A stretch of DNA of 64,000 nucleotides from Nonlabens spongiae (GTDB lineage: Bacteria > Bacteroidota > Bacteroidia > Flavobacteriales > Flavobacteriaceae), in contig NZ_CP019344.1 in the NCBI RefSeq assembly GCF_002117125.1, positions 124,001 to 188,000 of the forward strand, read 5' to 3'. Below the pieces are notes generated by a model that worked only from the letters and a program-made list of their open reading frames with translations, searched no databases and was not told the origin of the DNA. The translations under genes were made by a program, and so were the position numbers. Positions 1 to 60,792 of this stretch are shown piece after piece. Positions within the stretch are counted from its first letter, which is position 1. Each line of letters begins with the position of its first letter.

Positions 1-904
1 AAAAACTTTTTGCGCTGATTTTGAATTGGAGTCCTTCCATTTCTTCAAAAATGTGATCCCTGCCGTGATAGAGTACGACATCTTGATCGTAAATGGTGTC
101 GTTTGCTTTCTCGTTAATGATGTACTGCAAAGAGGTAATTTCAGGAAACTCATTCTTTAGATGTTCCAGCAGTTTTTCTCGATCCTCTGGGCGGTCTTCA
201 AAAAATTGAATCACCACCATGTTTTCGCCTGTCGAACTCATGCGCAACATCAAGGTACGTAGCATGCCCTCTTTGGTTCTAGGGTTAAAGTAGGGTAGGT
301 TTTCCGCTTTCGCGAAAGCGTGAACTCCCAGCCTAATACGCTCTCCAATTTCAGGGTGAAGGTGACACTCATCCAGATGAAGGATCTTGTCCCACATTCC
401 CGGAATATGAAAACCCAGCGCGTTTTTGTTCTCAATTTCACGATCGCTTTGAATCTCTTCCAGCGTGAGCCATCTGTTAGCCGAAAAGCTGAACTCCATC
501 TTATTGCGATAATGGTACGTGTTTTCAGAACCAGCGATAGGAGTGATTTCTGGAAGGTCTAGATGGCCTATACGTCTCAGATTTTCAGAGACTTCCTTCT
601 GTTTGAAATGCAGTTGATGTTCATAAGCCATGTGCTGCCACTTGCAGCCACCGCAAACGCCAAAGTGTTTACATACAGGCTCTGTTCTGCGCTCTGACTT
701 CTTAATGTAATTGGTAACCTTGCCCTCGTAAAAAGATTTCTTCTTTTTGAAAGTCTGTATATCCACCACATCACCGGGTACCGCATCAGTCAGAAAGATG
801 ACTTCGCCGTTCTCGGTTTTTGCGACACTCTTTCCTCTAGAACCAGCATCTACTACTGGGACGTTTAGAAATGTTTTTTGGGCTCTTCTCCTACGTTTTG
901 ACAT
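1..904 (-). CDS. rlmD: 23S rRNA (uracil-C5)-methyltransferase RlmD, C-terminus outside window
   Basis: SAM-dependent enzyme expected to methylate U1939 of 23S rRNA in the cytoplasm. The frame is open from the ATG at 904 to the left edge (301 codons), so only the N-terminal two thirds are seen. Residues about 10-70 look like a TRAM RNA-binding domain. C78, C84 and C87 (CKHFGVCGGC) give the C-x5-C-x2-C spacing of the iron-sulfur cluster in RumA/RlmD. The methyltransferase core and catalytic Cys lie outside the window. A copy of the 16-bp palindrome is translated as HAFAKAE near residue 198. The family is certain; RlmD rather than a paralogue is inferred from TRAM plus the Fe-S motif. Confidence 0.88.
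   Translation of the reverse strand, partial: MSKRRRRAQKTFLNVPVVDAGSRGKSVAKTENGEVIFLTDAVPGDVVDIQTFKKKKSFYEGKVTNYIKKSERRTEPVCKHFGVCGGCKWQHMAYEHQLHFKQKEVSENLRRIGHLDLPEITPIAGSENTYHYRNKMEFSFSANRWLTLEEIQSDREIENKNALGFHIPGMWDKILHLDECHLHPEIGERIRLGVHAFAKAENLPYFNPRTKEGMLRTLMLRMSSTGENMVVIQFFEDRPEDREKLLEHLKNEFPEITSLQYIINEKANDTIYDQDVVLYHGRDHIFEEMEGLQFKISAKSF
305..320. repeat. CGCTTTCGCGAAAGCG palindrome, copy 1 (in rlmD)
   Basis: Perfect 16-bp copy inside the methyltransferase gene, read as AFAKA. Confidence 0.95.
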
Positions 905-2116: not shown

Positions 2117-2132
2117 CGCTTTCGCGAAAGCG
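2117..2132. repeat. CGCTTTCGCGAAAGCG palindrome, copy 2 (divergent intergenic)
   Basis: Perfect copy; symmetry extends to 22 bp (2114-2135, TTT...AAA outside). It lies between divergent genes starting at 2089 and 2196. Confidence 0.95.
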
Positions 2133-7607: not shown

Positions 7608-7623
7608 CGCTTTCGCGAAAGCG
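7608..7623. repeat. CGCTTTCGCGAAAGCG palindrome, copy 3 (clpC-gyrA divergent spacer)
   Basis: Perfect copy 80 bp upstream of the clpC start and 175 bp upstream of the gyrA start. Confidence 0.95.
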
Positions 7624-11622: not shown

Positions 11623-12372
11623 CTAGAGCGATTTAATAACTCTTAGTTTATGCGAGTGATAATTGAGCTGCTCGTTATATATGCCCGTTTGATCAATTCG
11701 ATCCACTCGCACCTTGCCATGAGCATGAATGATATAGTTATTGGCCATAATGATTCCCACATGAGTAATAATGCCTTCAGCGTTGTCAAAAAATGCTAGA
11801 TCACCTTCTTCCGCTTCTTCAACAAAACTGAGAGAATCTCCCGCTTCCGCCTGCTGACTGGCATCACGCTTGATTTCCTTCCCATTCATGCGATAGATGA
11901 GTTGCGTGAAACCACTACAATCGATACCAAACGGTGTCCTGCCTCCCCATAAGTATGGTGCATTTAACAAGCATAGAGCGTCTTTGACTATTCCCGCTTT
12001 CGCGAAAGCAGACTGGTTTCTAGACTTATGTATAAATGTATCACCTAAAAACACAGCAGACGAGATTCTGGAACCGTAGCTGATATGTGAAAGACTCTCA
12101 TTGCTATGAGCCACTGGAGTCAGGATATCTTCACTATAAGATATGGACGAATTATTAAGGTTTTGAAAATCTTTTTCATCAATCTCAAGAACCATTTTTT
12201 TGTCTACCCAGCCCTCATATAAATCATGATGCAACCTTATGAGAAACCAGTTCTTTCTGGTGTCAATAATCTTAAACGTTTCACCATAGAGTAATTGAGA
12301 CACCATTTCTGAGGCATCACTACATTCACTCCTCATGGGAGTTATGGAAGTAGGTGAGACTCCGTATCTCAT
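11623..12372 (-). CDS. NlpC/P60 family cell-wall peptidase with SH3-like N-terminus
   Basis: 249-residue putative peptidoglycan endopeptidase. Residues about 1-60 resemble a bacterial SH3 domain (SQLLYGETFKIIDTRKNW...YEGWVDKK). The catalytic domain (about 125-249) has Cys152 in FGIDCSGFTQ, the following GDLAFF, His204 in THVGIIM and His216 in IIHAHGKVR. No signal peptide is seen from this start, as is common for the YkfC-like branch that trims murein peptides in the cytoplasm. A 15/16 copy of the palindrome encodes SAFAKAG (121-127) just before the catalytic domain. It lies immediately downstream of the thiolase (4-bp gap), so probably shares its transcript. Confidence 0.88.
   Translation of the reverse strand: MRYGVSPTSITPMRSECSDASEMVSQLLYGETFKIIDTRKNWFLIRLHHDLYEGWVDKKMVLEIDEKDFQNLNNSSISYSEDILTPVAHSNESLSHISYGSRISSAVFLGDTFIHKSRNQSAFAKAGIVKDALCLLNAPYLWGGRTPFGIDCSGFTQLIYRMNGKEIKRDASQQAEAGDSLSFVEEAEEGDLAFFDNAEGIITHVGIIMANNYIIHAHGKVRVDRIDQTGIYNEQLNYHSHKLRVIKSL
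11995..12010. repeat. CGCTTTCGCGAAAGCA, copy 4 (in NlpC/P60 gene)
   Basis: The only short copy with a mismatch (last base A instead of G). Read as AFAKA in the peptidase. Confidence 0.9.
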
Positions 12373-15750: not shown

Positions 15751-15766
15751 CGCTTTCGCGAAAGCG
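15751..15766. repeat. CGCTTTCGCGAAAGCG palindrome, copy 5 (intergenic)
   Basis: Perfect copy, 42 bp downstream of the HD phosphohydrolase stop and upstream of a co-directional gene. Confidence 0.95.
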
Positions 15767-18185: not shown

Positions 18186-19274
18186 ATGACCCTCACTCCT
18201 GAACAAATCAAAGAGATGCTTACTGAGCCTGAATATGCTGCTCAGGTTGCCGATCTGGTCTATATCAATGATCACCACCTCAATATTTATCGCAAGCCCC
18301 ATGGTAGGGGCTTTACTTATTTGATCAATAATAAGGATAGGCTTACAGATAAGGACCAGATCAAGCGCATCAAGTCTCTTGTGATACCACCTGCGTGGCA
18401 AGAAGTGCGCATTAGTGAACTTCCTAACGGTCATTTGCAAGTTGTAGGACGTGATGACAAGCAGCGCAAGGTATATCTGTATCACAACTTATGGATGATG
18501 CTGCGCAATCAGACTAAGTTTTTTAAGATGTCCGCTTTCGCGAAAGCGTTACCTAAACTAAGATCTCGAGTAGAACAGGATCTGGAACAAGAAGAAATGA
18601 ACCTGAGCAAATGCCTGGCATTAGTAATTAAAATCATGGATGAAACCCACATAAGAGTGGGCAGTTCCTATTATGCTGAAACCAATAAAACCTACGGTTT
18701 GAGCACCCTGAGAACGCGACATGTTAGAGAAGATCACGGACACCTCAAATTTGAGTTTAAAGGCAAAAAGGGAGTCATGCAATCCCAAGAAATAGATGAT
18801 CCTGAATTGATGCAACTCATCAAGGAGAGTGAAGAGATACCCGGCTGGGAACTATTTCAATATTACGACGCACGAGGTGGTCACCACTCAATTGATAGTT
18901 CTATGGTCAATGAATACATTAGAGAAAATGCTGGAGAGATGTTCAGCGCAAAGGATTTTAGAACCTGGGGCGCTTCTACTGAATTCTTCACTCACGTATC
19001 TGGTTTAGATATTACGAAAGAACTTAAACAGCGTGAGAAAAATATCATCAGCGGAATGGACGCAGCGGCAGAGGCACTGGGAAACACGCGATCTGTCTGT
19101 AAGAAATATTATGTTCATCCCCAACTTCCCGAGCTTTACCTGAAAGACGGTTATAAAGAGTTTCATGAGAACAGATCCAAATTCAGGAACTCAGATTTTT
19201 TCACTCGCGAGGAAAAATGGGTGCAGCACATTATCAATGCCTTTGAGATCAAGTTTGAGGAAGCACTGGATTAG
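18186..19274 (+). CDS. type IB DNA topoisomerase (poxvirus/eukaryote-like)
   Basis: Relaxes supercoils by a 3'-phosphotyrosyl intermediate without ATP. 362 residues, the size of bacterial viral-like TopIB. The N-terminal domain (about 1-100) has FTYLINNKDRLTDKDQIKRIKSLVIPPAW. The catalytic domain has the Arg region HIRVGSSYYAETNKTYGLSTLRTRHV, a Lys/Arg stretch HLKFEFKGKKG, and the nucleophile Tyr (308 or, more likely, 309) in VCKKYYVHP. A palindrome copy is read as SAFAKAL at about 117-123. TopIB is patchily distributed in bacteria. It probably shares a transcript with the preceding 42-codon ORF. Confidence 0.92.
   Translation: MTLTPEQIKEMLTEPEYAAQVADLVYINDHHLNIYRKPHGRGFTYLINNKDRLTDKDQIKRIKSLVIPPAWQEVRISELPNGHLQVVGRDDKQRKVYLYHNLWMMLRNQTKFFKMSAFAKALPKLRSRVEQDLEQEEMNLSKCLALVIKIMDETHIRVGSSYYAETNKTYGLSTLRTRHVREDHGHLKFEFKGKKGVMQSQEIDDPELMQLIKESEEIPGWELFQYYDARGGHHSIDSSMVNEYIRENAGEMFSAKDFRTWGASTEFFTHVSGLDITKELKQREKNIISGMDAAAEALGNTRSVCKKYYVHPQLPELYLKDGYKEFHENRSKFRNSDFFTREEKWVQHIINAFEIKFEEALD
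18533..18548. repeat. CGCTTTCGCGAAAGCG palindrome, copy 6 (in topoisomerase IB)
   Basis: Perfect copy, read as AFAKA between the N-terminal and catalytic domains. Confidence 0.95.
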
Positions 19275-21897: not shown

Positions 21898-22497
21898 TTA
21901 GAGTTTCAAGGTCAGTTGCTGGGGCAATAATTTAAAACTTTTACGGTGGTACTTTGTAGCGCCGTGTTCTCTAATGGCTTCACGATGCGCGCGGGTGGGA
22001 TAACCCTGATTGCGCTCCCAGCCGTATTCTGGGTATTCCCGTGCAATTTGCGCCATAAAATCATCACGATAAGTTTTTGCCAAAACTGATGCAGCAGCGA
22101 TATGCAAATATTTCCCATCGCCCTTGATCACCGTGGTGTGGGGGATTTCTGCAAAATTTGTGAACCTGTTACCGTCTACTGCGATGTGTTCAGGTGTCAT
22201 TTGAAGTCCTGAAATGGCAAGATGCATGGCTTTGATGCTGGCGTTTAAAATATTGATTTCGTCAATTTCTTCCATCATAACGTGAGCCACGTGATAGGCC
22301 ATGGCTTCCTTTTCTATGAGTGGTCTGAGAAGGTCTCTACGCTTTCGCGAAAGCGTCTTACTATCATTCAACAGTTCACAGGCAAAATCATCTGGAAGGA
22401 TAACGGCCGCTGCGGTAACAGGACCCGCAAGACAACCGCGGCCGGCTTCATCAGTACCGCATTCCAGTAATTCTTTATGGATTTTTGAAAGCAACAT
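21898..22497 (-). CDS. rnhB: ribonuclease HII
   Basis: Endonuclease that cuts RNA in RNA-DNA hybrids, including single ribonucleotides in DNA. 199 residues. The DEAGRG motif ([14 protein letters not shown], residues about 16-29) holds the first two acidic ligands, and VDGNRF and [13 protein letters not shown] further acidic/structural elements of the family. It has normal length. A palindrome copy lies at about residues 48-53, read as the basic peptide LSRKRR in place of the family's variable loop. It is divergent from the porin gene. Confidence 0.95.
22340..22355. repeat. CGCTTTCGCGAAAGCG palindrome, copy 7 (in rnhB)
   Basis: Perfect copy, read in the second frame as LSRKR. Confidence 0.95.
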
Positions 22498-24598: not shown

Positions 24599-25846
24599 TT
24601 GAAAGCTACCATTATTACCATAGGCGATGAGATCTTGATAGGCCAGATCGTAGATACAAATTCGGCCTGGATGGGGCAGCAGCTCAATAACGTGGGGGTT
24701 TCTGTTTATGAGATTATCACGATTAATGACGATAGGGTGCATATTCTTTCCGCTTTCGCGAAAGCGGAACAACAATCAGACCTCGTCCTAATAACCGGCG
24801 GTCTGGGTCCCACAAAAGATGACGTTACCAAAAGCACGATCTGTGAGTATTTTGATGATGAATTAGTGCTGAACCAAACGGTACTGGAGCACATAGAGAA
24901 TATTTTTTCAAAGTATGTGAAAGACGCTATTTTACCCGCAAATAGAGACCAGGCCCTAGTTCCCAGCAAAGCGAGAATCCTACATAATGACTATGGGACG
25001 GCGCCAGGGCTTTGGATGGAAAAGAACGATACGATTTTTGTATCCATGCCCGGCGTGCCTTTTGAGATGAAGGGAATCATGACCTCTGGAGTTTTGCCTG
25101 AGATCATCAAAAAAGGAAATCTACCGTTCATACACCACCGCACCATGATTACAGCAGGAGTGGGGGAAAGCACGATCGCAAAACGTATTGAAGCATGGGA
25201 AAATGCCCTGCCTGAAACGATCAAACTTGCCTACCTGCCTAGCTCAGGAATGGTCAGGTTGCGCCTTTCCAGTATCGGGATGGATCGTGTTGAGGTAGAA
25301 ACTTCAGTTGCGGCTCAGGTAAAAGCGCTTTACGATTTGATAGGCGATATCATCGTAGGGGAGAGCAATGGTGAATCGCTAGTTCATACGGTTTTTAATC
25401 TACTCAAGGAAAAAAGGAAAACCATCGCCACTGCCGAAAGTTGTACGGGAGGCAAAATTGCAAATCTGATAACAGAAATCCCTGGGGCATCTACCGTTTT
25501 TAAAGGTAGTACGATCACTTATGCCACGCAGTCCAAAATTGATATTTTAGGAATTGAAGGGAAGTTGATCGATGAAAATAGTGTGGTCAGTGCTGAGGTA
25601 GCGACTGCCATGGCTGCTCAAGCTCGCGTAAAATTCAAAAGCGATATCGCTATAGCCACTACTGGGAATGCCGGTCCCAGCAAGGGAGACAGCGATGCTG
25701 AGGTAGGAACCGTCTACATAGGAATCGCCGATGAGAATGGTGCGGAAGCCTGTAAATTTCTAATGGGAAACAACCGAGAACGCGTAGTGCAGAAAACGGT
25801 AAACAAGTCGCTGGAGCTGTTGCAAAAAATATTAATCAAAAAGTGA
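24599..25846 (+). CDS. cinA: CinA family nicotinamide-nucleotide amidohydrolase
   Basis: 415 residues, the usual two-domain form. N-terminal molybdopterin-binding-like COG1058 domain (1-170; ITIGDEILIGQIVDTNSAW, TGGLGPTKDDVTK) acts on ADP-ribose in relatives; the C-terminal PncC domain (about 255-415; TAESCTGGKIANLITEIPG, TGNAGPSKGDSDAEVGTVY) deamidates NMN to NaMN for NAD recycling. TTG at 24599 is the start because it gives MKATIITIGDE with no better ATG. A palindrome copy is read as SAFAKAE (51-57), taking the place of a variable helix without changing the usual protein length. Confidence 0.93.
   Translation: MKATIITIGDEILIGQIVDTNSAWMGQQLNNVGVSVYEIITINDDRVHILSAFAKAEQQSDLVLITGGLGPTKDDVTKSTICEYFDDELVLNQTVLEHIENIFSKYVKDAILPANRDQALVPSKARILHNDYGTAPGLWMEKNDTIFVSMPGVPFEMKGIMTSGVLPEIIKKGNLPFIHHRTMITAGVGESTIAKRIEAWENALPETIKLAYLPSSGMVRLRLSSIGMDRVEVETSVAAQVKALYDLIGDIIVGESNGESLVHTVFNLLKEKRKTIATAESCTGGKIANLITEIPGASTVFKGSTITYATQSKIDILGIEGKLIDENSVVSAEVATAMAAQARVKFKSDIAIATTGNAGPSKGDSDAEVGTVYIGIADENGAEACKFLMGNNRERVVQKTVNKSLELLQKILIKK
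24751..24766. repeat. CGCTTTCGCGAAAGCG palindrome, copy 8 (in cinA)
   Basis: Perfect copy with symmetry extended to 22 bp (24748-24769, TTC...GAA). Read as AFAKA. Confidence 0.95.
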
Positions 25847-29347: not shown

Positions 29348-29429
29348 CGCTGTCCCTCGGTCGCCATACTGCCTTCGTAGCCACTTCGGCGTAGTTGGCT
29401 AGGCTTGCCGAAGGCGCAGCGCGAAAGCG
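29348..29429 (-). repeat. 82-bp long form of the palindrome element, copy A
   Basis: Read on the minus strand it begins CGCTTTCGCG and ends CAGCG, so its two ends are bases 1-10 and 11-16 of the short palindrome (one change in the last six), with a 66-bp insert between. 74 of 82 bases agree with copy B at 59279-59360. The insert can fold: GCCTTCG / CGAAGGC encloses TAGCC-A-ACT(A)C-GCC-GAAGT-GGCTA. It is G+C-rich compared with its surroundings. It sits 7 bp beyond the extended end of the HAD hydrolase frame. Confidence 0.85.
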
Positions 29430-29513
29430 AAATATCTAGAATAAATCTCTTAACTTATTTTCTAGATCCATCACATCCTCTTTCCCGACTTGTAGATGCC
29501 AGGTTTTGATGCC

Positions 29514-30053
29514 TTATTTATTCGCGGCATCAGTGTTTTCTACGGTATCATCTATGAAAAGAGTGTCTTCGGCCTTGATATTATTCTTATTCAGGACAAA
29601 CTCATAGATGTCAGTATTAGGCTTGCGTAACCCTATTTCATGAGATAAGTAGAAGCCATCAAAAGCATTTTTGAAAGTCTCAAAATCTGCTCCCATATTT
29701 TCTTTTATATTCTCAATATGGAGATCATTGGTATTGCTTAGCAGAAAAATTTTATGAGTACGCTTTCGCGAAAGCGTCACCAAAAAATCAAGTCTGTTTG
29801 TTGGAAAATCCAGCAACATGCCATTCCAAATTTCTTTCAATTGCTGCGAGTTAAGTTGAGGGATAGCCTCGTGCAGCGAGTTCAAAAACTCCTTTGTGCT
29901 GTTGGAACCTACCTCATATAACTTATTGAGCCGATCCAAAGCTCTACGTCCACTTTCATGAACTGAATAAGAGTCGAGTTGCCTCGAGACATAGGTTTTG
30001 TCCAGGTTCACAAATACATCACCAAAATCAAATATGATGTTTTTTATAGGCAT
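29514..30053 (-). CDS. HAD family hydrolase, shortened by a late nonsense codon
   Basis: Haloacid-dehalogenase-like phosphatase of 179 residues as written. Motif I FDFGDVFVNLD (nucleophile Asp about 9), motif II LLSNTND, Lys in GLRKPNTDIYE and motif IV FIDDTVENTDAA are all present. The frame stops with TAA at 29514-29516, but the same frame continues for another 25 sense codons (GIKTWHLQVGKEDVMDL, then ENKLRDLF) to TAG at 29436-29438, which would give the 205-residue family length. TTA (Leu) to TAA would explain it. All catalytic motifs survive, so activity is possible. A palindrome copy is read as TLSRKRT at about 93-99. Confidence 0.85.
   Translation of the reverse strand: MPIKNIIFDFGDVFVNLDKTYVSRQLDSYSVHESGRRALDRLNKLYEVGSNSTKEFLNSLHEAIPQLNSQQLKEIWNGMLLDFPTNRLDFLVTLSRKRTHKIFLLSNTNDLHIENIKENMGADFETFKNAFDGFYLSHEIGLRKPNTDIYEFVLNKNNIKAEDTLFIDDTVENTDAANK
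29761..29776. repeat. CGCTTTCGCGAAAGCG palindrome, copy 9 (in HAD gene)
   Basis: Perfect copy, read as LSRKR. Confidence 0.95.
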
Positions 30054-33324: not shown

Positions 33325-33340
33325 CGCTTTCGCGAAAGCG
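33325..33340. repeat. CGCTTTCGCGAAAGCG palindrome, copy 10 (divergent intergenic)
   Basis: Perfect copy 44 bp upstream of the xerD start, between xerD and the OMP gene. Confidence 0.95.
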
Positions 33341-36815: not shown

Positions 36816-37865
36816 ATGTACAAATCACTCGTTAGACCGCTACTTTTTCGTTACGATCCAGAGCAGGTACACCACTTTTCATTCAAATCTTTGAAATTGT
36901 TGAATAAGCTGCCTGGAGTAGGTACGCTTTCGCGAAAGCGTTATCACATCAAGCACCCCAGTCTAGAAAAAGAATTGTTTGGAATCAAGTTTCCCAATCC
37001 TGTGGGTCTCGCTGCAGGTTTTGATAAAAATGCCGTTGCCTTCAAGGAATTTTCAAATCTGGGTTTTGGATTTATTGAGATAGGAACCTTGACGCCCAAA
37101 CCGCAGGACGGAAATCCTAAAAAGCGCTTGTTCCGTTTGAGGGAAGATGAGGCAATCGTGAATCGCATGGGATTCAATAATGGGGGAGTGGATGCTGCGG
37201 TCGAGCGGTTGAAGCAAAACAAGCCGATGGGACATCCTGATCATGTGATTATAGGTGGGAATATTGGGAAGAATAAAGTGACCCCTAACGACCAGGCGGT
37301 AGATGATTATGTGATCTGTTTCAACAAACTTTTTAATTACGTAGATTATTTTACGGTGAATGTGAGCTCGCCCAATACGCCAGGTTTGCGGGAACTCCAA
37401 GACCGTAAACCGCTCACGCATATTTTACAGACCTTGCAGGATCTCAATGATCAAAAAACTTGTCGTAAACCTATCCTTCTCAAAATAGCTCCAGATCTGA
37501 CTGATGATCAATTGCTAGACATCATAGGAATTGTTGCCGATACAAAAATTGATGGCGTTATCGCTACTAACACGACTATCGAGCGCAAGAATCTCAAAAG
37601 CGACATACAACTTCAACAAGAAGCGGGTGGTCTGAGTGGTAAGCCACTTACAAACCGAGCTACTGAAGTGATTAAATTTCTCCACGAGAGAAGTAACGGA
37701 GCTTTCCCAATTGTGGGAGTAGGCGGGATCATGAGCCCTAAAGATGCTCGGGAGAAGCTAGAAGCTGGTGCAAGTCTTGTCCAATTGTACACGGGTTTTG
37801 TTTATGAAGGCCCGGCACTTGTAAAAAATATCAATAAGTCGATCGCTGCTCAAGCACGCAGCTAG
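36816..37865 (+). CDS. pyrD: dihydroorotate dehydrogenase (quinone), class 2
   Basis: Fourth step of pyrimidine synthesis, passing electrons to quinone at the inner membrane. 349 residues from the ATG at 36816 ([20 protein letters not shown]); a TTG 18 bp upstream is less likely. The N-terminal extension with helices ([16 protein letters not shown]) marks class 2. [10 protein letters not shown] binds FMN; the catalytic Ser is in [24 protein letters not shown] follows near the end. A palindrome copy is read as TLSRKRY at about 36-42, in the loop linking the membrane domain to the barrel. Confidence 0.95.
36925..36940. repeat. CGCTTTCGCGAAAGCG palindrome, copy 11 (in pyrD)
   Basis: Perfect copy, read as LSRKR. 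Confidence 0.95.
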
Positions 37866-39890: not shown

Positions 39891-40757
39891 ATGGATTATT
39901 CCTCTGCTTCTGCATTTGAAGAAATGAACCGCATTATTGACAATGCTTTGCGTGAAGATTTAGGAGATGGTGACCATAGCAGTCTGTCGTGTATACCTGA
40001 AACGGCACATGGTAAAGCCAGATTGCTCGTGAAGGACGAGGGTGTTCTTGCTGGTGTCGCTTTCGCGAAAGCGGTATTTCATAAAGTAGATCCAGAGTTA
40101 AAACTGGACGTAATCATAGACGATGGAGAGGAAGTAAGTTATGGCGATGAAGCATTTTACGTGAGCGGCTCGTCTCGTAGCATCTTAAAAGCAGAACGAC
40201 TCGTTTTGAATTCTATGCAGCGCATGAGTGCGATTGCCACCAAGACCAGAAAATTTGTACACGCACTTGAAGGTACAAAAACTAAGATTTTAGACACGCG
40301 TAAAACCACACCTGGAATCAGGTTGTTAGAAAAGTGGGCGGTAGATATAGGTGGAGGAGTGAATCATCGATTTGGTCTATACGACATGATCATGCTCAAG
40401 GATAATCATATTGATTTTGCGGGTGGGGTAGAACAAGCTATCAAAAAAACCAAAAAGTACCTGAGTGAGACGGGTAGGGACTTAAAAATCATCGTTGAGG
40501 CAAGAGATCTAGCCGAAATCAAGAAGATTCTCAAACACGATAACATCTATCGCATCTTGATCGACAATTTCAACTATGAGGATACGCGCAAGGCGGTAAA
40601 ATTAATTGGAGACCAGTGCCTCACCGAGAGTAGTGGTGGTATCACGCTCGATACTGCTAAGCACTATGCAGACTGTGGTGTAGATTTCATTTCAAGTGGA
40701 TCTCTTACACATAGCGTGTACAATCTGGACTTGAGCTTAAAGGCGGTGCATGGCTAG
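39891..40757 (+). CDS. nadC: nicotinate-nucleotide diphosphorylase (carboxylating)
   Basis: Converts quinolinate and PRPP to nicotinate mononucleotide in de novo NAD synthesis. 288 residues. EDLGDGDHSS, SMQRMSAIAT, TRKTTPGIRLLEKWAVDIGGG, HRFGLYDMIMLKDNHI, and the C-terminal ISSGSLTHSV are all QAPRTase motifs, with the catalytic and phosphoribosyl-binding Arg/Lys residues in place. A palindrome copy is read as VAFAKAV at about 56-62, where relatives usually have a similar-length helix. It overlaps yihY by 8 bp, so the two are coupled. Confidence 0.95.
   Translation: MDYSSASAFEEMNRIIDNALREDLGDGDHSSLSCIPETAHGKARLLVKDEGVLAGVAFAKAVFHKVDPELKLDVIIDDGEEVSYGDEAFYVSGSSRSILKAERLVLNSMQRMSAIATKTRKFVHALEGTKTKILDTRKTTPGIRLLEKWAVDIGGGVNHRFGLYDMIMLKDNHIDFAGGVEQAIKKTKKYLSETGRDLKIIVEARDLAEIKKILKHDNIYRILIDNFNYEDTRKAVKLIGDQCLTESSGGITLDTAKHYADCGVDFISSGSLTHSVYNLDLSLKAVHG
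40058..40073. repeat. CGCTTTCGCGAAAGCG palindrome, copy 12 (in nadC)
   Basis: Perfect copy, read as AFAKA. Confidence 0.95.
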
Positions 40758-44105: not shown

Positions 44106-44121
44106 CGCTTTCGCGAAAGCG
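44106..44121. repeat. CGCTTTCGCGAAAGCG palindrome, copy 13 (divergent intergenic)
   Basis: Perfect copy, symmetry extended to 22 bp (44103-44124, TTA...TAA). Between the GAF kinase start (44021) and the DoxX-like gene (44202). Confidence 0.95.
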
Positions 44122-47714: not shown

Positions 47715-48529
47715 TTAAAATTTCTTTGTCGTTTGGCTTCAAAAAGCAATATCGCAGCACTTACTGATACATTCATGGAGTCTATCGCTCCTCCCATCGG
47801 GATGATCACGTTTGCTTTTGCGGCATCTCTCAAAGCCTGATCTAGGCCGGTAGCCTCAGTTCCCACAGCAATCGCGCAACCATTTGTGAAGTCTTGCTGG
47901 TCGTATCTGGTGCTATTTTGTAAGGTAGCTGCGAATAGGTCAATTTTTTTAGTTTGCAAGAAGTCGGTTAGTTCAGCAGCTGTTTCAACAGTTACCGTGG
48001 GAACCGTGAAAAGACAGCCTACGCTGGATCGTATGACATTTGGGTTGTACAAGTCTGTGGTGGGCGCTACCACGATCATGGCATCTACTTTGGCAGCGTC
48101 TGCAGTACGTAACAAGGCACCTAAATTTCCAGGTTTTTCAGGTGACTCTGCGATGAGTATTAATGGCTTTTCAGAGAGTTGTAAGTCTTGAAGTTTGAAG
48201 TTTTTCGCTTTCGCGAAAGCGAGACAACCCTCAACACCACCACGATAAGCGATATTTTCATAAACCTCGCGAGAAACCTTGATGACTTGCGGACTTTGCT
48301 TGATGTTCAGTTTATGGTAAATGTTCTGGGGGTCAGTTGTGTCTGTATCCTGAAACAGATCATCGCAGACAAATAAAGTGTCCAACTCGTAATAACCCTG
48401 ATCTGCCAGCATGATCTCACGACGGCCCTCAATCACAAAAATGCCCTCAGATCGCCTGGCGCGGCTCTTGCGCTGCAATTGCTCAATTTTTCTGATGGTC
48501 GCATTATGAGGACTGGTAATCAATTTCAT
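47711..48529 (-). CDS. TrmH/SpoU-family RNA 2'-O-methyltransferase
   Basis: 272 residues from the ATG at 48529 (MKLITSPHNATIRKIEQL); a frame start at 48559 adds 10 residues. The N-terminal substrate-binding domain (1-95; RSEGIFVIEGRREIMLA) and the knotted SPOUT domain carry ESPEKPGNLGALLRTADA (motif 1), CAIAVGTEATGLDQ (motif 2) and IPMGGAIDSMNVSVSAAILLFE-type motif 3 (marker: IPMGGAIDSMNVSVSAA). The methylated RNA is unknown. A palindrome copy is read as LAFAKAK at about 107-113, between the domains. It overlaps the M48 gene by 4 bp. Confidence 0.92.
   Translation of the reverse strand: MKLITSPHNATIRKIEQLQRKSRARRSEGIFVIEGRREIMLADQGYYELDTLFVCDDLFQDTDTTDPQNIYHKLNIKQSPQVIKVSREVYENIAYRGGVEGCLAFAKAKNFKLQDLQLSEKPLILIAESPEKPGNLGALLRTADAAKVDAMIVVAPTTDLYNPNVIRSSVGCLFTVPTVTVETAAELTDFLQTKKIDLFAATLQNSTRYDQQDFTNGCAIAVGTEATGLDQALRDAAKANVIIPMGGAIDSMNVSVSAAILLFEAKRQRNFK
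48206..48221. repeat. CGCTTTCGCGAAAGCG palindrome, copy 14 (in RNA methyltransferase)
   Basis: Perfect copy, read as AFAKA. Confidence 0.95.
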
Positions 48530-53105: not shown

Positions 53106-54122
53106 TTGAAAAAAATATTGCTGGTTATTTTTTTAGTTGTTTCCGCTTTCGCGAAAGCGCAAATAGGAGGAAGATCTACCTACCAATTTCTTAATTTGGT
53201 CAACGGTGCCAAACAAGGAGCACTGGGCGGCCGTGTCCTAACCTCTGTGGACTATGATCCTACATCAGGAATCTACAATCCCGCAACCATCAATCGTAAG
53301 ATGGATAACCAGCTGCAAGTGAATTACGTGAATTACTTAGCTGATGTGAATTACGGTACGGCAAGCTACGCGTATACTTGGGACCAGCATGTACAGACTT
53401 TTCACGCTGGCGTTGTATATCTTAACTACGGGAGTTTTGATGGATACAATGAGCTGGGTGAATCTACGGGAGAGTTCGGTGGAAATGAAGTGGCTGTAAG
53501 TTTTGGGTATAGTTACAACATTCCCTGGACCGATTTTTATGTGGGGGCCAACTTAAAGTTGATCAGTTCTCAGCTGGAACAATACAGTTCTTTAGGTGGA
53601 GCGGTAGACTTGGGATTATTGTATTATAATGAAGACAAGTGGATACGTGCGGCGGTGGTTGTACGTAATATTGGAACTCAATTTACACCTTATAACGAGA
53701 TCTACGAGCCCTTGCCACTAGAAGTTTCCGCTGGTTTTTCAAATACCATGCGTAATCTACCTGTACGATTGCATGTAACATTGGAAAATTTGCAGCAATG
53801 GAACCTCGCATTCTCAAACGATGCAAATGCCGAGCGTGATCTCGATGGAAATGTTATTGAAGATGAGCCCGGTTTTTTCAATAATGCATTACGACACACC
53901 GTAGTAGGAGTGGAGATATTCCCAGAAAGTGCCTTTGAGGTGCGATTGGGTTACAGTTTTAGAAGAGCAGAAGAACTACGCATTGCAGATACTCGCGCCT
54001 TTTCTGGTTTGAGTGGAGGTTTCTCCTTAAAAATCAATAAATTACGATTTAGTTACACTCACGCGAGATATACGCTGGCAGCTCATACTAGCATTATTGG
54101 GCTCAATATCGATTTACGCTAA
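53106..54122 (+). CDS. porQ: type IX secretion system protein PorQ
   Basis: Outer-membrane protein that, with PorU/PorV/PorZ, helps attach cargo to the surface. 338 residues from TTG at 53106, chosen because it gives a proper signal peptide (MKKILLVIFLVV then SAFAKAQ); a TTG at 53049 adds 19 residues that are not signal-like. GGRSTYQFLNLVNGAKQGALGG and YDPTSGIYNPATINR are PorQ/PorV-family features, and the barrel ends IIGLNIDLR. The palindrome supplies the AKA before the predicted cleavage point. Its stop overlaps the cmk start by one base. Confidence 0.9.
   Translation: MKKILLVIFLVVSAFAKAQIGGRSTYQFLNLVNGAKQGALGGRVLTSVDYDPTSGIYNPATINRKMDNQLQVNYVNYLADVNYGTASYAYTWDQHVQTFHAGVVYLNYGSFDGYNELGESTGEFGGNEVAVSFGYSYNIPWTDFYVGANLKLISSQLEQYSSLGGAVDLGLLYYNEDKWIRAAVVVRNIGTQFTPYNEIYEPLPLEVSAGFSNTMRNLPVRLHVTLENLQQWNLAFSNDANAERDLDGNVIEDEPGFFNNALRHTVVGVEIFPESAFEVRLGYSFRRAEELRIADTRAFSGLSGGFSLKINKLRFSYTHARYTLAAHTSIIGLNIDLR
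53144..53159. repeat. CGCTTTCGCGAAAGCG palindrome, copy 15 (in porQ signal peptide)
   Basis: Perfect copy, read as AFAKA; AKA immediately precedes Q and forms the predicted signal-peptidase I site. Confidence 0.95.
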
Positions 54123-54970: not shown

Positions 54971-55786
54971 TTAACCTAACAACTCAGCCATCTGCTCCTG
55001 AAGTTCTTTAGCTTTTTCTCGAGCTTTTTCAGCAAAATCTTCTCCGTTTGAAGCATAGATAATCCCACGTGATGAATTGATCAGCAAACCTACCAATTCG
55101 TTTTTACCATATTTATAGACCTCTTTCAGACTTCCTCCTTGAGCGCCTACACCGGGAGCGAGTAAGAAAGAATCAGGAACTATTTTTCTCACTTCGGTTA
55201 ATGAAGAAGCTTTTGTGGCTCCCACTACATACATTAATCGATCACTGTCCTTATAGTCTTGCGTTTTTCTCAAAACATCTTCAAATAAGAGGTTGCCTTG
55301 TTGTGATTCAGTCATTTGGAAATCAGCGGCTCCACGGTTTGAGGTTAATGCCAATAGAATCGCATATTTTCCATCAAATTCCAGAAATGGCTCCACGGAA
55401 TCTCTTCCCATGTAGGGAGCAATCGTCACGCTGTCAAAATTAAGGTCTTCAAAAAAAGCTTTGGCGTATCTGGTGGACGTGTTTCCTATATCGCCACGTT
55501 TCGCATCAGCGATAGTAAAATGATTGGGATAGTTTTCGTTTAGGTAATTAATTATTTTCTCCAGCGCTACCCAGCCTTTAACTCCATAGGCTTCAAAAAA
55601 TGCCGTGTTGGGTTTATAAGCAACACATAAATCGTGAGTGGCGTCTATGATCGCTTTCGCGAAAGCGAAAATAGGATCCTCCTCCTTCAATAAATGCGGC
55701 GGTATCTTCTCAAGATCCACATCCAGACCTACACAGAGAAACGACTTTTTTTCAAGGATTTGTTGATGGAGTTGGGTTGTGGTCAT
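54971..55786 (-). CDS. pyrF: orotidine-5'-phosphate decarboxylase, type 2
   Basis: Last step of UMP synthesis. 271 residues from the ATG at 55786 ([20 protein letters not shown]); an upstream in-frame start at 55831 lies inside the preceding gene. [33 protein letters not shown] (catalytic Lys/Asp), [15 protein letters not shown] and [10 protein letters not shown] mark the type 2 (long) family. A palindrome copy is read as FAFAKAI at about 40-46, just before [14 protein letters not shown]. The preceding gene on the strand is the nuclease-peptidase fusion, whose stop is 11 bp upstream. Confidence 0.95.
55652..55667. repeat. CGCTTTCGCGAAAGCG palindrome, copy 16 (in pyrF)
   Basis: Perfect copy, read as AFAKA. 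Confidence 0.95.
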
Positions 55787-58370: not shown

Positions 58371-58988
58371 ATGACCAAAAACTATTTTTTACTCGTTTTA
58401 ATACTCATTTCTCAAACCATGCTCGCTCAGAATATTGAAATCGGAGCTGGAGCTGGGTCAGGGGCTTTTTACCTCATAGAAGAAATAGACGATAATTCAC
58501 GAGCTATTTATGAGGGACCTGCCTCTCTTTATATGGATTTCAAATACAATTTCAATGGAGTAGAAGGCGTGAAACTACGCATGCTTCATACAAGTGTTAT
58601 GGTTGAGGGGCAAGATTATCAGTCTGGTCTTTCACTTAATGGTACTGTGGATGCATTCAGCTTCTTACTTTTATACGAGCGTTTGAGGGCAGATAAAAAA
58701 TTTAACGTGGGATATAATTTTGGTTTGGGACACACCATTCAAAACTTCAATCGGAATACGAGATCTGGTGCAAATGATGTTCAGGATCGATTCATGAGCT
58801 TGAATTTTACCGGGATAGCCTCACTTCAACTTAGCGATCGACTAAGATTGAAAGGCGAAGCGGGCTTTCTCTGGACAGATCCCATCAATTCGCTACGTGG
58901 ATCGGACTACTGGCAAACTGCTGGTGAGGACTTAAGTTTTCTTGTACAATTAGGATTAAGTTACTCGTTTCTAAAAGATGAGCAATAA
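58371..58988 (+). CDS. small outer-membrane beta-barrel protein
   Basis: 205 residues with signal peptide (MTKNYFLLVLILISQTMLAQ). The mature part has alternating strand patterns (IEIGAGAGSGAFYLIEE, YMDFKYNFNGVEGVKLRML, FNVGYNFGLGHTIQNF, LSFLVQLGLSYSFL). No named family. It overlaps msrA by 11 bp at its 3' end, so the two are translated together. Confidence 0.75.
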   Translation: MTKNYFLLVLILISQTMLAQNIEIGAGAGSGAFYLIEEIDDNSRAIYEGPASLYMDFKYNFNGVEGVKLRMLHTSVMVEGQDYQSGLSLNGTVDAFSFLLLYERLRADKKFNVGYNFGLGHTIQNFNRNTRSGANDVQDRFMSLNFTGIASLQLSDRLRLKGEAGFLWTDPINSLRGSDYWQTAGEDLSFLVQLGLSYSFLKDEQ

Positions 58989-59526
58989 GAAACTCGATTT
59001 CGGAGGTGGTTGTCACTGGTGTACTGAAGCTGTTTTCCAGGCATTGCCCTACGTTGATAAAGTAGAACAGGGCTATATAAAAAGTAGCCCTCCCTTCGAT
59101 AGTTGGAGCGAAGCGGTCATCGTACACTTTTCAGATCACGGTAGAATTCCAGAGCTCATGGACATCCATCTGGCTACGCACAAAAGTACTTCTGAGCACT
59201 CACGCAGGGCAGAGTATCGCAGCGCTGTTTATTATTTTGATAACGGGTTGAAAAAAGAACTTGAGAGTGTAATAATCCCGCTTTCGCGCTGCGCCGATGG
59301 CAAGCCTTGCCAACTTCGCCGAAGTGGCTACGAAGGCTGCATGGCGACCGAGGGAAAGCGGAACAAAAATTACATCACAAAAATTTTACCTTTTAAGGAT
59401 TTCAAACCATCCCGAGAGTCGATCCAGAATTATTATCAAACAAGACCAGACGCCCCATTTTGCACCAGATACATCGAGCCAAAGCTTAGTATCGTGCGAG
59501 AAATTTTAAGTTCTAGTGATAAGTAA
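58978..59526 (+). CDS. msrA: peptide-methionine (S)-S-oxide reductase carrying an in-frame repeat element
   Basis: Reduces methionine-S-sulfoxide in proteins. 182 residues. The catalytic Cys12 is in DFGGGCHWCTEAVF (GCHWC in place of the usual GCFWC); EYRSAVYYFDNGLKKELE and the C-terminal FCTRYIEPKLS follow. Residues 101-128 are encoded by the 82-bp long palindrome element and its flanking base pair; this stretch adds three Cys (105, 111, 121) and basic residues between the helix ending ESVII and the strand NYITKIL. The sequence is a divergent MsrA branch. It overlaps purM at the 3' end by 14 bp. Confidence 0.86.
   Translation: MSNKKLDFGGGCHWCTEAVFQALPYVDKVEQGYIKSSPPFDSWSEAVIVHFSDHGRIPELMDIHLATHKSTSEHSRRAEYRSAVYYFDNGLKKELESVIIPLSRCADGKPCQLRRSGYEGCMATEGKRNKNYITKILPFKDFKPSRESIQNYYQTRPDAPFCTRYIEPKLSIVREILSSSDK
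59279..59360 (+). repeat. 82-bp long form of the palindrome element, copy B (inside msrA)
   Basis: Begins CGCTTTCGCG and ends AAAGCG, i.e. bases 1-10 and 11-16 of the short palindrome with 66 bp between. 74 of 82 bases match copy A (29348-29429 reversed). The insert contains a hairpin GCC-A-ACTTC-GCC-GAAGT-GGC. One base pair outside extends the terminal match (C...G). It is read through by msrA without a stop. Confidence 0.88.
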
Positions 59527-60776: not shown

Positions 60777-60792
60777 CGCTTTCGCGAAAGCG
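60777..60792. repeat. CGCTTTCGCGAAAGCG palindrome, copy 17 (intergenic)
   Basis: Perfect copy, 83 bp upstream of the purM start and just downstream of the glutamine-synthetase terminator. Confidence 0.95.

Follow-up and report, generated by a model that had tools for sequence, protein, structure and literature searches.

The SDRs that Elhai et al. 2008 are said to have described in Nostoc and its relatives reportedly measure 21-27 nt and include related members that have a hairpin form and nested insertions. They are also said to share a common secondary structure with compensatory changes, and an RNA intermediate was reportedly proposed for their movement. According to the parts of one account that deal with the matter, SDR5 is inserted in cyanobacteria between nucleotides 3 and 4 of HIP1, and cutting directed at HIP1 is suggested there as a partial reason for this placement (PMC4390886). 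The same parts present HIP1 as a highly iterated cyanobacterial palindrome with no agreed function, for which a link to orphan methyltransferases is proposed, and put the over-represented oligomers of cyanobacteria at about 500-2500 per million (PMC4390886). A different kind of short repeat is represented by REPs, which, in the passages of two papers devoted to them, carry a GTAG or GTGG head before the hairpin, and whose RAYT genes are described there as always flanked by two inverted REPs (PMC2817692, PMC3116915). REP palindromes can themselves be targets of IS1397, ISPsy8 and others, with ISPsy8 making a direct repeat, as reported in the relevant portion of a further study (PMC1525189).

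The window analysed here, the whole stretch of 64,000 nucleotides at G000:C1:124001-188000 in the 3.39-Mb genome of Nonlabens spongiae, contains two 82-bp sequences (Table 1), named below by their first positions, the 29348 copy on the minus and the 59279 copy on the plus strand. The repeat pair described in the first-pass annotation is real: pairwise comparison finds 74 of the 82 positions identical, and a scan of both strands of the window revealed no third 82-mer with at least 45 matches to the 59279 copy. Also as described there, the two copies begin and end with the first 10 and last six bases of a short palindrome, the 16-mer CGCTTTCGCGAAAGCG; both open with CGCTTTCGCG, and the right end AAAGCG bears a single change, to ACAGCG, in the 29348 copy. 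Searches of the whole genome recovered six such 82-bp copies together with fifteen of 49 bp, i.e. 21 filled sites of a family that we call F1. Three of the long copies beyond the window are co-linear with those inside it (L002, L003 and L005, with E values of 1.7e-27, 2.7e-26 and 4.3e-20, respectively), the last matching over bases 5-82 only, with its left arm decayed; in the sixth, L006, the inner 33 bases lie at another place and are inverted.

How is the long form built? When the left 28 bases were used as a query against the own genome with up to 3 mismatches, 19 places were recovered, namely the fifteen 49-bp copies and four long ones. Every one of the fifteen has exactly the composition 10+33+6, i.e. 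CGCTTTCGCG, a 33-base piece designated X1, and AAAGCG, with an arm variant in five, and throughout the filled copies of this genome the insert lies between bases 10 and 11 of the 16-mer (a point written 10^11 below), even though the arms have decayed in some. Because these fifteen copies exist, the 66-bp insert is best regarded as two 33-bp pieces, so that its length was correctly given at first but its status as a single unit was not. Sequence comparison identifies the long form as X1 with a second 33-base piece, X2, replacing the three-base loop of X1. In L006, X2 is reversed and sits on the opposite side of the same GGCAAGCC, which implies that X2 moved or turned alone at least once; nesting of X2 within X1 is thus seen at two positions and in both orientations. 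A 21-base core of X1, again with up to 3 mismatches, matched 15 places in the own genome, by coordinate 14 of the fifteen 49-bp copies plus L006, and no core free of the 16-mer arms, which the first-pass annotation had named as evidence that would count against it, was found within that tolerance.

The folding of these sequences is less uniform than first proposed. A nested hairpin with the stem GCCTTCG/CGAAGGC had been attributed to the insert; the half GCCTTCG occurs in two of the five co-linear long copies, L003 and L004 (the latter being the 29348 copy), and is absent from the 59279 copy, so this stem is copy-specific. Relative to shuffled sequences, the 59279 copy folds with a z of -2.5 and one hairpin of the F2 family of related species (see below) folds strongly (z -3.2), whereas the 49-bp form (z -1.0), the 16-mer (z -0.9) and a hand-typed, consensus-like reverse strand (z -0.4) do not stand out. 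No covariation of stem bases, a sign that had been suggested for inspection, is seen in the 49-bp F1 form (X1), and the F1 fold is therefore unsupported by compensatory change. Similarly, the insert length is divisible by three in F1 (33 and 66), as originally noted, but not in the family common among relatives (20 and 21 bp).

Table 1. Positions of the long forms, their parts, msrA and the 16-mers within the window
Feature	Position	Strand	Remark
82-bp long form, 16-mer with 33+33 bp insert	29348..29429	-	intergenic, 4 bp past last in-frame stop of HAD-hydrolase-like frame
Left arm CGCTTTCGCG of 29348 copy	29420..29429	-	
Inner (second) 33-bp insert X2 of 29348 copy	29367..29399	-	by comparison with 49-bp form; ends within a base or so
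Right arm ACAGCG of 29348 copy	29348..29353	-	one change from AAAGCG
82-bp long form	59279..59360	+	in frame within msrA, where orthologs have 16-mer
Left arm CGCTTTCGCG of 59279 copy	59279..59288	+	
66-bp insert of 59279 copy	59289..59354	+	X1 with X2 nested
Inner 33-bp X2 of 59279 copy	59309..59341	+	at position of X1's 3-base loop; ends within a base or so
Right arm AAAGCG of 59279 copy	59355..59360	+	
msrA, peptide methionine sulfoxide reductase	58978..59526	+	PF01625, 182 aa, 22-aa insertion between LSR and KR
16-mer	305..320	.	intergenic
16-mer	2117..2132	.	intergenic, divergent genes
16-mer	7608..7623	.	intergenic, divergent genes
16-mer with one mismatch	11995..12010	.	coding, AFAKA
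16-mer	15751..15766	.	intergenic
16-mer	18533..18548	.	coding, AFAKA
16-mer	22340..22355	.	coding, LSRKR
16-mer	24751..24766	.	coding, AFAKA
16-mer	29761..29776	.	coding, LSRKR, in HAD-like gene
16-mer	33325..33340	.	intergenic, divergent genes
16-mer	36925..36940	.	coding, LSRKR
16-mer	40058..40073	.	coding, AFAKA
16-mer	44106..44121	.	intergenic, divergent genes
16-mer	48206..48221	.	coding, AFAKA
16-mer	53144..53159	.	coding, AFAKA
16-mer	55652..55667	.	coding, AFAKA
16-mer	60777..60792	.	intergenic

The 16-mer into which these pieces are fitted is a HIP1-like iterated palindrome that occurs far above chance, in and between genes. The own genome has 671 exact copies (~200 per Mb), and all 23 Nonlabens genomes carry it in 180-737 copies each (reversed control, 0). 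Among 249 genomes drawn from the family, three of them Nonlabens, the motif was abundant in just two genomes of other genera (153 and 630 copies), with 0-12 in the rest; 200 kb of each of these two contained 37 and 16 exact 16-mers, respectively, and no filled site with exact arms. Its conservation is best seen between the sister species G001 and G009 (94-95% identity), where 276 kb of alignment (275,943 positions, in blocks of at least 800 columns) include 59 distinct sites at which the 16-mer is exact in at least one of the two. These sites show 3 changes in 944 positions (0.3%; 3/1840 if shared sites are counted twice) against 5.1% overall, and, with shared sites counted twice, the two bases before them show 0 changes and the first base after them 2 in 115. 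Judged from such comparisons, the 16-mer appears to be older than the inserts, and maintained. Candidate roles for it are those of a DNA-uptake signal or a methylation-linked HIP. A search of the open-licence literature by motif letters found no paper on the 16-mer, and no open-licence paper containing both ‘Nonlabens’ and ‘palindrom’ looked relevant by its title and start of abstract.

Within the window there are 17 copies, 16 exact and one with a mismatch, of which ten lie in ORFs, where they read AFAKA (7) or LSRKR (3), and seven between ORFs. Their spacing of about 3.4 kb is even, with a CV of 0.37 versus 0.93 for random placement (19 sites including the two long forms), and is also more even than random in three other Nonlabens stretches and in genome G227, though not in G211. 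Among the first 100 listed places, no exact 16-mer falls in G000:C1:1-24025 or 261488-305074, which are possibly acquired DNA. The motif seems to be shared by phages or prophages, as 41 viral stretches (L152-L192) hold exact 16-mers, 49 copies in 373 kb; filled sites with exact arms are absent from them.

The 82-mer, by contrast with this genus-wide landmark, is a private possession: at E<=0.01 it has no match in the other 22 Nonlabens genomes, the own genome standing alone among 23, nor is there one in the records of 50,697 phages and 72,556 plasmids. Viral contigs likewise yielded no exact 20-mer from its core. Relatives carry other hairpins at the same point. A gapped pattern, in which the 16-mer ends are 22-52 bases apart, occurs at 1-40 places in 18 of the 23 genomes (reversed control, 0-1) and at none in G002, G008, G017, G018 and G019, with the proviso that some of these places represent chance or other arrangements. 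The own genome has 30 such places, no more than 12 of which can belong to F1 with exact arms; those in G015-G022 were inspected among the matches listed. Reading of the listed places assigns 35 of 39 in G001 and 33 of 40 in G009 to F2, a 20-21-base hairpin CCTGCC..GGCAGG, and five of eight in G012 to F3, a 24-base family. F1, F2 and F3 share the insertion point 10^11. Confinement to the landmark is nearly strict for F2: in 800 kb of G001 and G009, 16-mer arms flank 24 of the 26 F2 hairpins (on both sides in 21, on one side in three), the other two being a single orthologous place outside such arms, and 23 of the 24 arm-bound hairpins sit at 10^11, with one (site S1) a base further on by our reading. 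Control right arms gave 5 to 109 matches and are uninformative as a control, since the string behind the 109 shares sequence with common contexts of the 16-mer. Longer forms of 50-62 bases are present in several species. Two further kinds of arrangement were noted. A class of ~52-63 bases whose ends are CGCTTTC/GAAAGCG and whose centre is often AACTTC/GAAGTT, some members of which are joined to a complete 16-mer, was observed in G001, G003-G006, G009, G011, G012, G014 and G015, and may constitute a separate, older repeat class. G009:C1:881167-881206 is a perfect 40-base palindrome, CGCTTTCGCG-CCTGCCTGCCGGCAGGCAGG-CGCGAAAGCG, and the only symmetric filled site among the matches listed; the CGCG at either side gives it the look of an insertion that duplicated 4 bases.

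Which state, filled or empty, came first? The answer is clearest at msrA, where 18 orthologs keep an in-frame 16-mer, exact in 12 and with one, two or three mismatches in three, two and one, respectively (this count leaves out a G018 match to a different protein, 43% identical and with 8 mismatches at the site, and G012, G013 and G014 gave no MsrA match). The insert of the 59279 copy splits the 16-mer exactly at the junction of the two parts kept in these orthologs. At the protein level, 11 of 120 listed database proteins were aligned, and precisely the 22 residues that the insert adds are absent from all of them, including the nearest, at 86% identity. Since the orthologs have the 16-mer and not the 22 residues, and the 82-mer is found in the own genome only among the 23, the short form is ancestral at msrA, and these alignments firmly indicate that the 16-mer preceded the 82-bp form there. 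A second case is provided by site S2, filled in G001, for which ten outgroups have matching flanks: six hold an exact 16-mer in the interval and two a copy with one mismatch, G011 and G015 have none within 3 mismatches, and in none of the ten is the insert present. Not every one of these intervals can be aligned base by base; outgroups that mostly have the 16-mer and never the insert indicate that G001 was filled later.

Comparison of G001 with G009 yields five sites, S1-S5, that are filled in one species and have the 16-mer (0-1 mismatch) in the other, besides seven filled in both and 56 with exact 16-mers in both. These counts omit alignment blocks of fewer than 800 columns, the unclear or chance rows G009 1535528 and 2134311 and a false F2 label at 402887, and they include two alternating sites, G009 1654315 and 1532821, that were recognised by reading the alignments and not by automatic labels. 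For two filled sites of G009, a flank is rearranged or missing in G001, and for six filled sites the stretches compared contain no counterpart, so that at these F2 sites a filled state may face no 16-mer at all. The initial view that the long and the short form represent one site in two states is supported, and orthologous sites do alternate, both at msrA and between G001 and G009. At S3, S4 and S5, the filled sister is longer than the empty one by a clean 20-21 bases, and no target-site duplication is visible; no usable outgroup was found for these three, and the direction of change is read from msrA and S2 alone. At S1, which lies inside a gene, the alignment covers the site in four outgroups besides G015, and all four have an exact 16-mer; a filled allele with altered downstream bases is common to G001 and the more distant G015, and G009, the sister of G001, has the 16-mer followed by outgroup-like residues. 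This pattern requires reversion or allele exchange, implying that turnover is not one-way.

Other filled sites are less easily placed. Twelve of the 21 own filled copies are in no ORF of at least 60 aa, and among the other nine homology backs msrA only. The HAD-like gene beside the 29348 copy has an ortholog in one other genome only, G007, where a decayed F2-like stretch lies 69 bases past the stop (27/37 matches; 0 of 1000 shuffles were as good), with no 16-mer; the two loci would fit different inserts in one ancestral landmark. The HAD-hydrolase-like frame itself (window 29434-30053, minus strand) has an in-frame TAA after residue 179 and stays open for 25 codons beyond it, resembling the C-terminus of the G007 ortholog, before it ends 4 bases short of the 82-bp element. 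For the 49-bp copy at G000:C1:192296, 12 relatives have no 16-mer within 2 mismatches over the same gene's end plus 250 bp, leaving a prior 16-mer there without support.

The reading that we favour, and hold to be probable as a whole, is that the 82-bp element is a 16-mer that received X1, which in turn received X2; that inserts entered pre-existing 16-mers is the part in which we have high confidence. A genome-wide 16-bp palindrome would thus have taken up X1, a non-coding hairpin of only 33 bp, between its bases 10 and 11, and X1 would then have taken up the second 33-bp piece, X2, in its loop. A putative sequence- or structure-specific enzyme would cut the landmark at 10^11, which in the predicted folded 16-mer is where the CGCG loop meets the 3' stem; a short hairpin would be joined or copied in at the cut, and filled sites would serve as donors for further 16-mers, so that species-specific families accumulate. 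We advance this cutting-directed mechanism tentatively, with slightly less than even confidence. The core does behave as if mobile, just as the first-pass annotation supposed, with the polarity reversed: at msrA and S2 the 16-mer came first.

The most direct competitor of a dedicated cut is template switching or gene conversion, in which replication or repair would stall at a 16-mer, copy a filled site by way of its 10- and 6-base arms and return, with no need for a special enzyme. Hundreds of identical 16-mers are at hand for such an event, which would account for scarless insertion, for a point fixed within each family and for the near-strict confinement to the 16-mer. Arms of 10 and 6 bases are, however, short for homologous recombination, and template switching by itself leaves unexplained why F1, F2 and F3 share 10^11; their use of a single point argues for a cut over pure template switching, which we consider possible but rather unlikely. 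Far harder to sustain is the proposal of the first-pass annotation that the long form is a mobile ancestor which left the 16-mer behind, either as the footprint of its excision or as a remnant after internal deletion. The alternation of long and short forms at orthologous sites would be expected under that proposal, as would the filled state at S1 that may have reverted in one species, but the 16-mer is genus-wide, slow to change, often kept in place and in frame within genes; 671 exact copies face 21 filled F1 sites found in the own genome, the 82-mer is present in one of 23 genomes, and the two 16-mer-bearing genomes of other genera yielded no filled site with exact arms. As the short msrA orthologs contradict it outright, an ancestral long form is scarcely credible.

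Movement by a Y1 (HUH) transposase, with X2 or the whole element as a REP-like hairpin, had also been raised. The own genome does have nine Y1_Tnp matches, four of them frames of 183-191 aa (G000:C1 689101, with a stop, 1568182, 1570639 and 3349888), and the reverse strand of X2 has GTAG directly before a bulged hairpin, as in REPs. Yet G001 and G009, which have the most pattern places (39 and 40), are without a Y1_Tnp (PF01797) match at E<=0.001, as are G006, G007, G016 and G020; GTAG is absent from the listed F2 inserts; and 20 regions round Y1 genes in 11 genomes, covering seven of the nine own matches, contain neither the F1 core nor a filled site recognisable by its left arm. Because the two genomes with the most pattern places lack a Y1 match and these 20 neighbourhoods hold neither core nor recognisable filled site, a Y1 or RAYT protein was rejected as the general mover, and an origin of the REP/RAYT type is very unlikely. 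Three Y1 transposase genes of 155 aa with near-equal scores lie at G000:C1:530102, 917683 and 1397943. Finally, the inserts might not be mobile DNA at all but selected extensions of a functional hairpin, a terminator or an RNA element, as would suit the strong fold of the F2 hairpin and the many own copies outside ORFs. Against this speak the nearly identical copies scattered over many loci of a single genome, the in-frame copies within msrA and the S1 gene, and the absence of any Rfam match in the window. Divergent genes, between which a terminator is unexpected, border four of the window's seven intergenic 16-mers, making the terminator reading unlikely; the functional reading in general we regard as most improbable.

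What does an insert confined to a landmark mean in wider terms? The orthologous sites show very small hairpins entering a highly iterated palindrome, with the point of entry all but fixed, and this in a second phylum after the cyanobacteria. This bears on how elements of 20-66 bases move and on what highly iterated palindromes are for, and hundreds of identical sites, combined with sister species that differ at single sites, make both questions testable in Nonlabens. It is conceivable, if doubtful, that a candidate Nonlabens enzyme reads a palindromic landmark and, causing no duplication, installs hairpins that vary in sequence where its loop joins the stem, SDR5 in HIP1 being an independent instance of the same process; if true, what defines such a class of mobile DNA would be the landing site, whatever the sequence of the element.

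Among described systems, the palindromic elements of Rickettsia resemble the Nonlabens inserts in being palindromic and able to sit in frame in genes, but they are larger and are not known to have a fixed palindromic target. REPs and REPINs served by RAYTs are likewise short, non-autonomous palindromic repeats in species-specific families; the Nonlabens inserts, unlike them, show no RAYT linkage or constant GTAG head and are restricted to a motif that was already present, coding sequence included. The insertion sequences that target REPs similarly enter at exactly one palindrome point, but are full elements with a transposase, whereas the Nonlabens inserts are non-coding, 20-66 bp long and without a visible duplication; nor was the target-site duplication of MITEs and IS elements found at the clean differences of S3, S4 and S5. 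Compared by description, SDR5 in HIP1 comes nearer: a very small element occupies a precise, off-centre point in an over-represented, genome-wide palindrome, and insertions in related SDRs can be nested, as X2 is within X1. A single point of entry of the SDR5 type is found here too, apart from a free F2 place, represented by two orthologs, and a site at which the insert lies one base off. Both targets are highly iterated palindromes, HIP1 being the 8-bp GCGATCGC of cyanobacteria and the Nonlabens target the 16-mer of another phylum, with its ~200 copies per Mb against the 500-2500 per million given for cyanobacterial oligomers. The sizes differ, SDRs with their 21-27 nt contrasting with F2 (20-21 bp), F3 (24 bp) and F1 (33 and 66 bp). 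As to the common structure with compensatory changes of SDRs, the F2 hairpin is strong, and the 49-bp F1 form neither folds above shuffles nor covaries. Unlike SDR5, moreover, different hairpins are placed at the same point by different Nonlabens species, and the direction is shown by orthologs. By these analogies, SDR5 in HIP1 appears to be the closest published analogue, and the Nonlabens system would work alike, while its F1 size, its target and its phylum set it apart from membership.
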